DNA from: Actinomycetes bacterium
GTDB lineage: Bacteria > Actinomycetota > Acidimicrobiia > Acidimicrobiales > SZUA-35
NCBI GenBank assembly: GCA_024280015.1
Contig: JAJRQY010000148.1
Span: forward strand, 1-34,829
Direction of reading: 5' to 3'
DNA: 34,829 nucleotides
The position numbers were made by a program, and so were the translations under genes. Positions 7,872 to 22,380 of the stretch are shown here, piece by piece; positions within the stretch are counted from its first letter, which is position 1; the number at the start of each line of letters is the position of its first letter. Under the pieces are notes generated by a model. It made no database searches and was not told where the DNA came from. It saw only the letters and a list, made by a program, of their open reading frames with translations.

Positions 7872-10451
7872 ATGAGACTCTTGAGCCGATGGCGGACACC
7901 AGCGATGCTTGGTCTAGGTGTGATGATGCTGGTTGTTAGTGCCTGTACCAGCGGTGATTCTGAGGCAGAAGACAGTCCAGCAACCACGGTCGCAGCCAGC
8001 GAAGTTACTGACGTCAACGATGAGTCAGCGACGACTGAGAGCATTAGCAGTCCAGTCTTTGTCAGTGATGCTGAGCTTCTCACTCTGGAGTTTTCTCCGG
8101 TCGACGAGGGCATATACCGGCTTGATTCTCTTGGGACACCGTTCTCTGTGGAGATCATCGGTGACTGGTTTGTTCAACCAAACAGTGCCGCCCTGGTGGT
8201 GTTCTCTCATCCCGATTCCGGAGGTCCGGGTGACCGGGACGTTGTTTTCTTGCGACCGGCTCAGCTGTCGGACCCGGTGAATCCAACAAGTGGCAGCGAG
8301 TCTCAATCCAGCTGGCCCGCAGAGGACATTCCCGGCTGGATTGATGGTCTCATCGACGGGGTGACCATCAGCGACATCGAGGACGTGAGCATCGGCGGTC
8401 GTGAGGCCGTGAGGTTCGACGTTGAAATCGCTGACGACTCAATTTGTGGACCACAGTCTTGCATCGATTTCACCACCAACAACGACGTAGGCGACTTCGC
8501 CTTCGATGCTGGCTTCACATACCGAGTCCATTGGGTCGACATGGGTGAGTTCGGCCCCGTCGCCATCATCACCGGTTGGCCCTCAGAAGACGACGCATTC
8601 GAATCCGATGCGACAGCACTTCTGAGTACGGTCGCATTTGGAGATCCACAAGCAAACCCGATCCCGGATGGAGCCGCACCTTGGGAACTGGGTCTTGGTG
8701 CACTTGTGCCGCCGGGACTCGTGCAGCTGCCTACGGCGGGCGGCATCGAATTTGATCTGGCCCAAGAGAGATTTATTGACCAGTTCTCCGGCTTCGCTGC
8801 CGTGACGCTTGACAATGCCCCCGGAGATTTCGAAATCCTTACACCATTGCGGGCTGACGGAGGACCAGACGTCAAGACGGTTGATGATGCGTTGGCGGCG
8901 GTGGAGTCGTTAGGTGTTGTGGCGACGGAGATTGAACCAGCGACCTTTCCTCTTGGGGCGGCCCGAGTCTTTGACATGGAAGGGTCCTCGGGTACCGCAG
9001 GGACGAAGAGCATTGTTACTACTGACGATGCACTTGGAGGTTGGCGTGCGCCGCGATTGGGGAGGATGTGGCTCTTCGATACCGAGCGGGGCGTCATCAT
9101 GGTTACCGCCGAAGCTGGCTCAGCGGACAACGAAGTGCTCGCCGAAGCAGTCGCCCTAGCCGAAGAGATTCTCCCCACTCTTGTACTTGCCAGCATGCCA
9201 GACGGGCGAAGTGCTCGCTCAATGGCTGACGCTGCTGCTGTGGGTGAGCCCTCCGGCGATGGCATCCTCCTGACTCCAGGGGTGTACACCTCTGATCAGC
9301 TCGATGACGTCTTCCTAGCGTGGAAGCTTGAAGATGACCTGACGCTGATGGACGAATTCCCCGGCCTTGTCGGGGTTGGGCTGCCGGGTGCGCTCAGAAC
9401 GGAGAACCATCTAGCGGCAGTGTTCACTGCGACCGGAATACCTGGGCCCGATGAAGGAGACGACCCGCTACCTCTTCCGTCCGACGTTGGCGCATACATC
9501 GAAGGCATCTCGCAGTTCGAGGTGTCCGATTCCGGGACGCAGACCATCAGCTCGGTTGAGGCATCCTGGTGGGACTTGACGGTGGTCTCCGGCGCCGAAG
9601 GTACATTCCCCTGCCCCTTTGGGGAAAGCTGCTTTCCTGTACTCAGCCATACGTCATTTCCGGCGGTAGTCATCGGCGACGAGTTCCAGTTCCGACTGTG
9701 GTCGATTCCTGATCCGGATGGGCAGGTCTTTGCCTTGGTCCAAGCCTCGCCTGAAGCTTTTGACAGTGTCGTGGCGGGAGCCGTTAGTGCCCTCAATGGG
9801 TTACGGGTATTGCCGTTCGTTGAACCGGTCGAGGTGGATGATTCCAACCTTGATCAGCTTGGCCGTTCGTTGGCCGATGGCCCTCTCCCGCTTGAGCCGG
9901 GCCAGTACTTCACTGAGAACATGCCGTTCAAGGTCTCGCTCGAACTGGCCTCACCCCTTGAGCTCAGCCTGTCTCAACCGACACACCTGGCGTTGATACC
10001 CGCGGGTCACGATCCGGTTGGCCCGCTGCAGTCCCTTGCACTTCTCCAGCCCATTCGCGGAGTTGCTGACCCCGATGACATCGGCGGCCCGGAAGGCCCG
10101 CCTGCTTTCATTGACGTACCGGATGATCTGCAAAGCTGGCTCGATGAAATACCACAGCTTGAGGTGACGGACTCGGGAACGGGAACGATCGGCGGCATTG
10201 CCTCGAGCTTCGTTGATCTACGAGTTATCGGTGCTCCTGAACGACGAGGTACTTGTGGTGATTTGAGCTGCTTCGCATTGTTTGATTGGCAAAGTGGACC
10301 TTGGATCATTGATGAGGAAAGTCCACAGCGCATCTGGACCGTGCCCCATCCCGCTGGCACGATCTTTGTACTCATCGAAGCACCGACGGAAGTCTTTGAT
10401 CAGTGGGCTGATGAGGTGCAGCCCGTAATCGACTCTCTCAGCTTTGGATGA
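7872..10451 (+). CDS. Large lipoprotein of four degenerate ~180-residue repeats
   Basis: 859 aa. A signal peptide ends in the lipobox VSAC with Cys25, followed by a Thr/Ser/Asp-rich linker to about residue 75. The rest can be laid out as four copies at about 79-257, 278-445, 468-647 and 675-858. Each starts with PG-x-Y or a similar turn and ends in a helix plus V-x-x-L. Copies 1, 3 and 4 share a W-x-x-x-IP-x-(L/F)EV/T-x-DSGT-like segment and a close Cys pair (192/197, 581/587, 795/800). Copy 2 has lost the Cys pair. SD AGGGGGA stands before the ATG. The protein is predicted to be anchored outside the cell. No enzyme motif is recognised; a binding or scaffold role is a guess. Confidence 0.88.
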   Translation: MRLLSRWRTPAMLGLGVMMLVVSACTSGDSEAEDSPATTVAASEVTDVNDESATTESISSPVFVSDAELLTLEFSPVDEGIYRLDSLGTPFSVEIIGDWFVQPNSAALVVFSHPDSGGPGDRDVVFLRPAQLSDPVNPTSGSESQSSWPAEDIPGWIDGLIDGVTISDIEDVSIGGREAVRFDVEIADDSICGPQSCIDFTTNNDVGDFAFDAGFTYRVHWVDMGEFGPVAIITGWPSEDDAFESDATALLSTVAFGDPQANPIPDGAAPWELGLGALVPPGLVQLPTAGGIEFDLAQERFIDQFSGFAAVTLDNAPGDFEILTPLRADGGPDVKTVDDALAAVESLGVVATEIEPATFPLGAARVFDMEGSSGTAGTKSIVTTDDALGGWRAPRLGRMWLFDTERGVIMVTAEAGSADNEVLAEAVALAEEILPTLVLASMPDGRSARSMADAAAVGEPSGDGILLTPGVYTSDQLDDVFLAWKLEDDLTLMDEFPGLVGVGLPGALRTENHLAAVFTATGIPGPDEGDDPLPLPSDVGAYIEGISQFEVSDSGTQTISSVEASWWDLTVVSGAEGTFPCPFGESCFPVLSHTSFPAVVIGDEFQFRLWSIPDPDGQVFALVQASPEAFDSVVAGAVSALNGLRVLPFVEPVEVDDSNLDQLGRSLADGPLPLEPGQYFTENMPFKVSLELASPLELSLSQPTHLALIPAGHDPVGPLQSLALLQPIRGVADPDDIGGPEGPPAFIDVPDDLQSWLDEIPQLEVTDSGTGTIGGIASSFVDLRVIGAPERRGTCGDLSCFALFDWQSGPWIIDEESPQRIWTVPHPAGTIFVLIEAPTEVFDQWADEVQPVIDSLSFG

Positions 10452-15899: not shown

Positions 15900-16403
15900 A
15901 TGGTCAGTTCTGGACCATACTTGGCGTCAATGAGCATGCGACTGAAACTGTCCGGGGCACCGCTGGGTTACACCGCGGCGCTAGTGGAGGGAACCGCCGA
16001 CTCCTACAAGGCATTCGGCGTGGCCCTCTGGTCCGATGAACGCATGGTTCCGGCTTCCATGAAGGAGCTGATATTCATCCGCTCTTCCATCGTCAACCAG
16101 TGCCCCACCTGACTGAAGGGCCATGTTGTCTCGGCGAGACGACGAGGAATCACTGATCAGGAGATCGATGCACTTGAACAGCCTGAGACCTGGGTTGACG
16201 TGTTCGACGATAAGGCCGTAGCTGCCCTGCGGCTGGCTGACGTCATGTGCGGTGACCGGGTCCACACACTCGAACCCGAGCTTGTTGCTGAGCTTCGCTC
16301 GCACTATGTCGAGATCGAGTTGGCGGAACTGATCCTGGTCTGTGGACAGGCCAACTTGAACAATCGAGCCGGGAACGCGGCAAAACAACTGCTTGGGGAC
16401 TAG
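15900..16403 (+). CDS. AhpD/CMD-family redox protein, predicted selenoprotein (in-frame TGA at 16110-16112)
   Basis: The frame from ATG 15900 to TAG 16401-16403 holds 167 residues and one internal stop, TGA at codon 71. Ordinary gene calling splits it into two pieces. Before the TGA comes PASMKELIFIRSSIVNQCPT; after it comes LKGHVVSARRRGITDQEIDA, a normal AhpD/CMD continuation. Together they read C68-P-T-x71-L-K-G-H75, so the TGA replaces the second Cys of the CxxCxxxH active site. AhpD-like proteins use this pair as a peroxidase or disulfide reductant, and Cys-to-Sec exchange in this family is known in principle. A hairpin at 16125-16143 fits a bacterial SECIS. Starts at 15930 or 15936 are also possible. 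Alternative reading: a single nonsense mutation. Confidence 0.75.
16121..16147 (+). promoter_or_regulatory. Candidate bacterial SECIS hairpin
   Basis: GTTGTCTC (16125-16132) pairs with GAGACGAC (16136-16143): eight pairs, one of them G-U, around the loop GGC (16133-16135). A U-G pair, an A-A mismatch and two C-G pairs can extend the stem to 16121-16147. Twenty nt separate the TGA from the loop and the loop begins with G, both within the usual bacterial SECIS rules as I know them. Confidence 0.65.
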
Positions 16404-17242
16404 TGGATTCCGCCTACGAATGGAAGCAGTTCTACAACACCGAGCGAGACCAAATTGGCGCGGCGACAATGCTGGCCATGGTCGATGCAGCCCAACCGCT
16501 TGACCTTGAAGCCGGGGGAGCGATCGTCATCCCGCACACTCGATTTGAGATAACCGGGTCTCAAATCGCTGCCGCGGTATCCACTGTTCTGGAATCGGGA
16601 ACCGATCGTGTTCTTGCCCTTGGCGTCTTGCATGGCGCCAGGCGAAGCGATCAACGAGAGGTCGCACGAGCCAAAGCGGGCGATCCTGAGGCGATCAACG
16701 CCTTGCGAGGTGTACATGAAGAAGACGGACTTGCGGCCGAAGAATTCTCTCTCGACGCCTTCGTCCAACTGCTTACGCTGGCCGCAGAGCGTCAGGGACG
16801 CCCGATCGATGTCGTGCGTCGCTATCCGTTCTTGGTAGGAGAGAACCCGGCATCATTGCCCGGTGTCGAAGGACTCCAAGAGATGGTCGACGATGGTGCA
16901 CTGCTGGTCGCCACAACTGACCCGATGCACCATGGACGCGCCTATGGCATGCCGGTGCCTGATTGTTTGGATCCGTTGCTCGCCAGCACAAGGGCGGTCG
17001 CCGGTGACGCGATCGGCGAGCAGCTGGACGCGTTGTCGGATCACCGGTTTGCCGAATTCGCCCGCCTGGTAGGACGCGACCGATCGGACTTCCGGGACAC
17101 TGGTCCGGTGATGGCCCACCTCCTCGGTTCGGGGTTCGACTGGAAGATTTGTGATCTCGACCTGGTCGACTACAGCGTGGTACTGGACTCGCCAGGACCT
17201 TCGTGGGTTGCCGGAGCACTCATCGTCACTTCGAATCACTGA
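16403..17242 (+). CDS. Memo-like protein (MEMO1 / class III dioxygenase fold)
   Basis: 279 aa from GTG 16403, which shares one base with the TAG of the preceding gene (TAGTG). Landmarks of the Memo fold: N-terminal FYNTERDQI; IVIPHTRFEITGSQIAAAVS with His45; VLALGVLHGAR with His77; VATTDPMHHGRAYG with His176/177; and the C-terminal SWVAGALIV, like YAAGAL of MEMO1. His45, His77 and His176/177 match MEMO1 metal or active-site histidines. The third MEMO1 metal ligand, a Cys in a C-G-R-H-P stretch, seems absent: the matching region reads FRDTGPVMAH. The usual AMMECR1 and radical-SAM partners are not nearby. It is probably a metal-dependent redox or hydrolytic enzyme acting with the AhpD-like selenoprotein (inference). 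Confidence 0.75.
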   Translation: MDSAYEWKQFYNTERDQIGAATMLAMVDAAQPLDLEAGGAIVIPHTRFEITGSQIAAAVSTVLESGTDRVLALGVLHGARRSDQREVARAKAGDPEAINALRGVHEEDGLAAEEFSLDAFVQLLTLAAERQGRPIDVVRRYPFLVGENPASLPGVEGLQEMVDDGALLVATTDPMHHGRAYGMPVPDCLDPLLASTRAVAGDAIGEQLDALSDHRFAEFARLVGRDRSDFRDTGPVMAHLLGSGFDWKICDLDLVDYSVVLDSPGPSWVAGALIVTSNH

Positions 17243-21075: not shown

Positions 21076-22380
21076 CTAGCTGGTCGGGTCGACGACCTGA
21101 CCAGCAAACAGAACAGCGCCGCTCTCAACGTGGCGTACAACATAGAAGAAGGGTCGCTCGGCTGCGATCACGATTTCGGGCTCGCCTGGCCCAGATTCAT
21201 CGAAGCCAAGAGCTGTAGCAGCCGCGGCCACCGTTCCGTTTTCGTCCACGGTGATGTCGGCACCGTGGATGGCTTCGGCCAGGAACACCCCTGGACCAAT
21301 GCCGGGGTAGGCGCCGGGGGCAATGCGGAGTTCGGTCAGCCAGTCAGCCAGATTGATGGTGCTGGAAGCCTCCCACTTGGGCATGCGTAGTTCGTAGGGG
21401 CCGGTGGTGAACGTATTGTCGATCTCGGCCAGGAGGTCCTGTGAGAGGCGTTGGCGGACCTCATCGAAGCGTCCTTCGTCGGGAATGATGAGAAGCATGG
21501 CGTAGTCGTCACCCAGGTAGGGAATCTCCGCCCCGGAGTAGCCATCGCCAAGTCCACGGATTCCAGATTGCTCCAGATCGACCAGGTAGCTGAGGTCGAC
21601 CATCGAACCATCGAGGCGGGTAAAAGCCCCCGACTCGGGGCCGTACTTGCCGAAGACACTTCGCCAATCAGCCTTGAAATAGATGGTGTCTGTCAATACC
21701 AGCACGGTGTTGCTAGTGATGAAGTTCTCGGGGAGAAGTTCGGGGATGAGGGTCTGTGTCTGCTCAGAAACCCAGTCGTTGATTCGTGACCGGGAGGCTT
21801 CAGGGTCGGAGACATCGATAGTTTCCACGTCGGCGCCATGGTGAGTGGCCATCAGGTCAACCCAGTTCTGATTGGGACTGGCTGCGGTCGAGGGCCAGAG
21901 CCGATCCGAGACGGTGACAACCGGTGTTCTTGAACCATCGGGGGCAGTCTGGGTGACGTTGGAATCAGCGATGGCGGCATCTAGCGTGTTCCAAGCGTCG
22001 TGAGCTTCCATACCTGCGGGAAGGCCGAACGCATCATCGATCGCAGCCCCGGTGGCATCATCAGCCGCAGCCCGAGCCATGAGTAGGGCGTGTCCGATGC
22101 TAAGAGGACTGAAGATGAGGTTGGTGTCGGCTGGTTGGGTGCGCATCAGATCAAACCCGGCGTTGGTGAACCCGGCAGCCAGGTCCCCAACCTTGGCATC
22201 GGCCATGATGGGGGCGCGTACCAGCTCAGCGGATGGCTTAACGACGGGCCCGGTCAGCGAGCCCGATCCAGCACTCGTGTCGTTGCCGGGGACAGCACCG
22301 CAGCTTGCAACCAGCAGGGCAAGTGTCAGAAAGGAGGGGCAGGCCAACTTGCGATGGTGTCCAGACTTGGTTCGACTCAT
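21076..22380 (-). CDS. Lipoprotein serpin (serine protease inhibitor)
   Basis: 434 aa. A signal peptide with lipobox VASC (Cys27) and a short linker lead to a full serpin domain (about 65-432). Landmarks: TNLIFSPLSIGHALLMARAA, FITSNTVLVLTDTIYFKADW, YELRMPKWEASSTINLADWL, AIHGADITVDENGTVAAAAT and the C-terminal ERPFFYVVRHVESGAVLFAG. The hinge of the reactive-centre loop (E380-N-G-T-V-A-A-A-A-T-A) has the small residues needed for loop insertion, so it is probably inhibitory. P1 by counting is near the D-E-S at about 394-396, which is unusual. It would be displayed on the outer face of the membrane to protect against external proteases. Confidence 0.93.
   Translation of the reverse strand: MSRTKSGHHRKLACPSFLTLALLVASCGAVPGNDTSAGSGSLTGPVVKPSAELVRAPIMADAKVGDLAAGFTNAGFDLMRTQPADTNLIFSPLSIGHALLMARAAADDATGAAIDDAFGLPAGMEAHDAWNTLDAAIADSNVTQTAPDGSRTPVVTVSDRLWPSTAASPNQNWVDLMATHHGADVETIDVSDPEASRSRINDWVSEQTQTLIPELLPENFITSNTVLVLTDTIYFKADWRSVFGKYGPESGAFTRLDGSMVDLSYLVDLEQSGIRGLGDGYSGAEIPYLGDDYAMLLIIPDEGRFDEVRQRLSQDLLAEIDNTFTTGPYELRMPKWEASSTINLADWLTELRIAPGAYPGIGPGVFLAEAIHGADITVDENGTVAAAATALGFDESGPGEPEIVIAAERPFFYVVRHVESGAVLFAGQVVDPTS

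Follow-up and report, generated by a model that had tools for sequence, protein, structure and literature searches.

Selenoproteins that carry an AhpD-like or CMD domain together with a CxxU active site first appeared in a 2005 study of the Sargasso Sea (PMC1088965) and have been listed again since (PMC9312934, PMC13188914). In PA0269 of Pseudomonas aeruginosa and in AhpD of M. tuberculosis, one study describes a relay consisting of Glu, Cys, Tyr or His, Cys, and His, and characterizes PA0269 as only a weak reductase of H2O2 (PMC3141380). The window, by which is meant the whole 34,829-nucleotide stretch of DNA analysed here, encodes on its plus strand a predicted protein that keeps the Glu, the two redox positions and the His of this layout. 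Given the publications on CxxU AhpD/CMD selenoproteins from 2005 onwards, the kind of protein is already known, and the Sargasso Sea class shares with the window protein both the CMD/AhpD domain and a CxxU motif with selenocysteine (Sec) in the second place. The published AhpD-like class is that of COG2128/TIGR01926, and the window protein, at 13.7 bits, lies well below the cut-off of 81.8 for that model. The CMD-like class of the same publication (PF02627), a broad one, would by its description take in the window protein, which may already be among the sequences published under it.

We place at roughly 95% the probability that the gene encodes a functional selenoprotein, namely an AhpD-like thiol/selenol oxidoreductase whose UGA codon would be decoded as Sec by way of a hairpin. 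The frame, the codon, the hairpin and the active-site motif are all conserved, the Sec genes are present in the genome, and the fold is predicted.

Family assignment

When the TGA is read through, the joined frame matches the Pfam CMD profile PF02627 at 44.8 bits (cut-off 23, E 1.3e-11) and TIGR00778, the NCBIfam model of the AhpD core domain, at 42.2 bits (cut-off 27.8), and solved AhpD-like proteins align to it on both sides of the TGA. The score against TIGR00777, the model for classical AhpD, is 13 bits against a cut-off of 191.95. Three NCBIfam models that cover selenoproteins describe a domain related to that of the window protein, which falls far below their cut-offs or is unmatched: it reaches 27.8 of the 310 bits of NF053654 (YciW-related (seleno)protein) and 26 of the 110 bits of NF041047 (GSU3128 family (seleno)protein), and it has no match to NF041238 (AhpD-related (seleno)protein) at E values up to 1, a model that weakly matches 18 of the 21 subfamily members described below. 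Because it scores so far below the thresholds that these selenoprotein models set, the window protein is a new subfamily-level member of an already described kind. A literature search on selenoprotein together with Acidimicrobi found nothing apparently relevant.

Reading frame and conservation of the TGA codon

Across positions 15900-16403 of the plus strand runs a single frame that ends with TAG at 16401-16403 and whose sole in-frame stop before that end is the TGA at 16110-16112. A first-pass annotation made from the DNA alone had recognized this frame with TGA as its only interruption, and profile and structure matches that span both sides of the codon confirm it. The frame and end that it gave for the gene, 15900-16403, also hold, with the start moved to 15930: homologue alignments begin at the codon corresponding to ATG 15930 (GTG in one row), and two relatives (L033 and L021) carry an additional TGA immediately upstream of the start-equivalent codon. 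The product is therefore most likely a protein of 157 amino acids with Sec at residue 61, replacing the earlier figures of 167 amino acids and residue 71. With its frame, profile matches and conserved ATG, the predicted AhpD/CMD-like selenoprotein gene thus occupies 15930-16403 on the plus strand, TAG included.

At E <= 1e-15, a search of 298 genomes of the same order recovered 16 loci, spread over 15 genomes when that of the window is counted, and a collection scan contributed 14 further loci, many of them on contigs already counted. TGA stands at the Sec codon in 30 of 30 aligned loci (the window copy, L017, among them); these include many contigs fetched twice and collapse to 21 distinct sequences, that is, the window's and 20 others with 56-76% protein identity to it. 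Named relatives are labelled mostly as uncultured Acidimicrobiales. The gene has no match among phage records, and the 125 plasmid records that matched are every one under 60% identity.

All 21 distinct sequences carry TGA at the Sec codon, and none has another stop downstream of the start. Other stops or frameshifts in close relatives had been named at the outset as signs of a pseudogene; instead, the close relatives found share this TGA and have no further in-frame stop within the gene. A nonsense mutation that ends an AhpD-like protein at residue 60 would explain why a single TGA interrupts the frame under translation table 11, but it is at odds with an identical TGA in all 20 distinct homologues and with strong conservation on either side of it. 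The TGA common to the homologues and the conserved sequence beyond it lead us to reject a pseudogene as exceedingly improbable. A sequencing error as the origin of the TGA was also considered and is effectively excluded.

The active-site motif reads E-x11-C-P-T-U-x3-H, with the TGA at the second active-site position, and its four key positions (Glu46, Cys58, position 61 and His65) are invariant across the 21 distinct sequences. The Glu46 codon (16065-16067, plus strand) encodes the counterpart of the AhpD proton-relay glutamate, with the spacing of Glu36 in PA0269 and Glu118 in M. tuberculosis AhpD. The codon of Cys58, the partner cysteine of CxxU, lies at 16101-16103, and that of His65, at 16122-16124, is always CAT and corresponds to the proton-relay histidine (PA0269 His55, M. 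tuberculosis His137). Close and distant homologues alike point to the TGA at 16110-16112 as the codon of Sec61, the second position of CxxU.

On the opposite strand an ORF of 162 amino acids (15981-16469) is open, and the plus-strand frame might in principle be merely its shadow. Similar antisense ORFs lie over the gene in 5 of 15 compared loci (window included), with another cluster of them in 4. It is the plus frame, however, that matches Pfam CMD and solved structures, that encodes a protein conserved in 21 distinct sequences, and that gives a confidently predicted AhpD-like fold, and on these profile matches, protein conservation and predicted fold an antisense gene is rejected, its probability being negligible. 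The selenoprotein gene itself has variable surroundings. When ORFs of at least 90 amino acids from the window and 14 other loci were compared by BLASTP (E 1e-8), no cluster of neighbouring genes common to more than 3 of the 15 loci was found, the largest cluster (5 loci) and the next (4 loci) both being antisense ORFs across the gene. The neighbours in these 15 loci support no pathway and differ between loci, suggesting that the gene functions by itself or together with a partner encoded elsewhere.

Other ORFs of the window can be recorded here. An ORF at 16403-17242 (plus strand) overlaps the stop codon of the selenoprotein gene by one base; it is weakly Memo-like (E 0.038, below the cut-off) and clusters with nothing in the other compared loci. 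A gene for a serpin (serine protease inhibitor), here in a bacterial genome, lies at 21076-22380 on the minus strand (Pfam E 2.7e-61), and an ORF of 859 amino acids at 7872-10451 (plus strand) lacks any Pfam match at E values up to 0.1; inspected by eye, its start looks lipoprotein-like.

The downstream hairpin and the selenocysteine machinery

A putative bacterial SECIS-like hairpin occupies 16124-16144 of the plus strand, with a 9-bp stem pairing 16124-16132 with 16136-16144 around the loop GGC at 16133-16135. The stem begins 11 nucleotides, and the GG of the loop 20 nucleotides, after the TGA in 21 of 21 sequences; the stem is 9 bp long in 19 of them and 8 bp in two (L022 and L026), where the loop-closing pair is absent. 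Of the 189 cells that the stem has in the alignment of 21 rows, 98.9% are paired, as against 29-77% in slid controls, and two pairs are changed on both sides, in 5 cells. None of 500 shuffles attained the covariation score or as many doubly changed cells, and 18 of the 500 had as many doubly changed pairs; further pair types (4) are not above shuffles (493 of 500), and 5 of the 9 pairs are invariant and hence uninformative on covariation. Mean normalized synonymous codon entropy is 0.22 over the 9 hairpin codons versus 0.75 over 74 others (p 1.5e-5), the hairpin span having been chosen once the hairpin had been seen. Folded alone, the window hairpin exceeds shuffled sequences in stability only moderately (z -2.00), 7 of 200 shuffles folding equally well. 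Judged from these alignments, the conservation of the hairpin, its compensatory changes and its frozen codons are as would be expected of a bacterial SECIS. A covariance-model search of the window's own genome, scoring the best 150 of 2879 first-look candidates, found no second clear hairpin site (next match E 0.144).

The genome (4.8 Mb in 175 contigs, 96.6% complete) carries all four Sec genes above their curated cut-offs, every one of those that the first-pass annotation had suggested looking for: a tRNA-Sec whose anticodon is TCA (66.4 bits; cut-off 47), selA (419.5 bits) and selB (290.3 bits), which overlap on one contig, and selD (375.5 bits). The Sec genes and the window lie on different contigs of an assembly with an estimated contamination of 1.93%. 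Among 14 control genomes, too, there were matches over the cut-offs (tRNA-Sec in 5, selB in 2, selD in 2 and selA in 1), and therefore no single machinery gene is proof. A selA match (E <= 1e-30) was obtained in 179 of the 298 same-order genomes, 175 of them over the cut-off, versus 15 of the 15 genomes that carry the gene, its own included (hypergeometric p 3.7e-4, a value that ignores shared ancestry); in one carrier, G070, the match is weak (E 1.1e-43).

With this machinery, the UGA at 16110-16112 would be decoded by a tRNA-Sec that SelB delivers, SelB presumably recognizing the hairpin at 16124-16144 just downstream. The selD gene (L077, G000:C58:4240-5163) itself contains one in-frame TGA, in the motif HGAGUGCK, at what we take to be the catalytic Sec position of SelD, and is likely a second selenoprotein gene in the genome. 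Its TGA is not among the scored matches of the hairpin covariance model, and the sequence after it folds differently.

Distant homologues, fold and proposed chemistry

Among 395 genomes of the class, matches at E <= 1e-12 were found in at least 22 genomes and at least 25 loci. Four of these loci are orthologues with TGA at E below 1e-73, including the window and a single sequence outside the 21 (L055); after a wide gap in E values follow at least 21 distant loci (E 5e-20 or weaker), of which 18 have Cys and 3 have TGA at the site. Among the matches listed for 396 genomes of the phylum at E 1e-18, there are only the window genome and a Cys homologue, L052. With L052 included, the distant homologues counted among the matches listed have Cys in 19 of 22 and TGA in 3 of 22, with Trp in none; these counts are lower bounds, at most 9 first-look candidates per genome having been scored in the class and phylum searches, and the order, class and phylum draws overlap. 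Cys in homologues is what the first-pass annotation had proposed seeking at the Sec position, and its view of the gene as an AhpD/CMD-like selenoprotein with TGA in place of the second active-site Cys codon is now supported by the conserved TGA, the Cys in distant homologues, the hairpin and the Sec genes.

These homologues also bear on whether UGA is generally read as an ordinary amino acid such as Trp. A translation with TGA as sense does leave the frame open, but TGA terminates selA in this genome and 3 of the 12 window ORFs that were checked, the Sec machinery genes are present, and among the matches listed the site is mostly Cys, never Trp, in distant homologues. A general reassignment is thus effectively excluded, with hardly any probability left to it.

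In a tree of 44 rows the subfamily's 22 rows form one Sec-only clade with support of 100/99; on the tree as a whole the Sec/Cys label has to change three times, and only one of these changes is forced by starred branches. The draws of 298 genomes of the order, 395 of the class and 396 of the phylum, which overlap, revealed no Cys orthologue. We tentatively suggest, at somewhat less than an even chance, an AhpD-like subfamily scattered in one class (probably Acidimicrobiia) that is an obligately Sec-using, stand-alone selenoenzyme and for which NCBIfam has no dedicated model.

The three distant TGA-containing loci of the same class, L066 (G857:C273), L067 (G894:C86) and L071 (G921:C161), are AhpD/CMD-like genes with TGA at the second active-site position, in motifs CAYU, CAFU and CAFU, respectively. 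Pfam CMD is matched by L066 and L067; in L067 and L071 a hairpin at equal distance shares the apical sequence of the window's, and L066 has a hairpin of other sequence. All three probably encode further selenoproteins.

An AlphaFold2 model of the window protein, with Cys in place of Sec, has a pLDDT of 92.8 and matches AhpD-like structures, PA0269 being among the top fold matches (TM 0.70-0.77); the model combines a helical AhpD-like fold with the arrangement E-x11-C-x2-C/U-x3-H. PA0269 (2ijc, 2o4d) is also the closest solved relative in sequence (E 3.2e-9). In PA0269 and M. tuberculosis AhpD alike, the Glu, the two Cys and the His are spaced as Glu46, Cys58, Sec61 and His65 are in the window protein. 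Differences lie between the two redox residues, where PA0269 has Cys-Ala-Tyr-Cys and the window protein Cys-Pro-Thr-Sec, so that the fifth relay residue of those descriptions, His132 in M. tuberculosis AhpD and Tyr50 in PA0269, is replaced by Thr60.

The product would accordingly be a 157-residue, all-helical AhpD-like oxidoreductase of the CMD superfamily with an active site of Glu46, Cys58, Sec61 and His65. The selenol of Sec61 probably attacks an oxidized substrate, either a hydroperoxide or a partner's disulfide, assisted by Glu46 and His65; Cys58 would then resolve Sec61 by forming a selenenylsulfide, and a thiol reductant of the cell would reduce this again. Whether such a protein is a peroxidase is a separate question. 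Sec could be inserted as proposed into a thiol-disulfide adaptor, or into a protein of other CMD selenol chemistry such as Bmp8-like dehalogenation, a reading that we regard as a real but lesser possibility. In line with it, the debrominase Bmp8 (6ohj, 6ohi) appears among the fold matches of the predicted model, the best-matched solved sequence, PA0269, is such a weak H2O2 reductase, and no shared partner gene adjoins the gene in the 15 loci compared. Against it, Bmp8 stands only at rank 21, below AhpD-like structures, and the AhpD relay residues Glu, Cys, Cys/Sec and His are retained.

Understanding of the system is left unchanged by the finding, which adds to annotation a clean and easily recognized selenoprotein subfamily. 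Gene callers that take TGA only as a stop would be expected to split or lose the gene, here and in its relatives, and the subfamily is therefore useful for annotation. The TGA in three further CMD genes of the class helps in asking under what circumstances Sec is preferred to Cys, and if the subfamily is indeed obligate in its use of Sec, this would imply a reaction in which Cys is no substitute for Sec.
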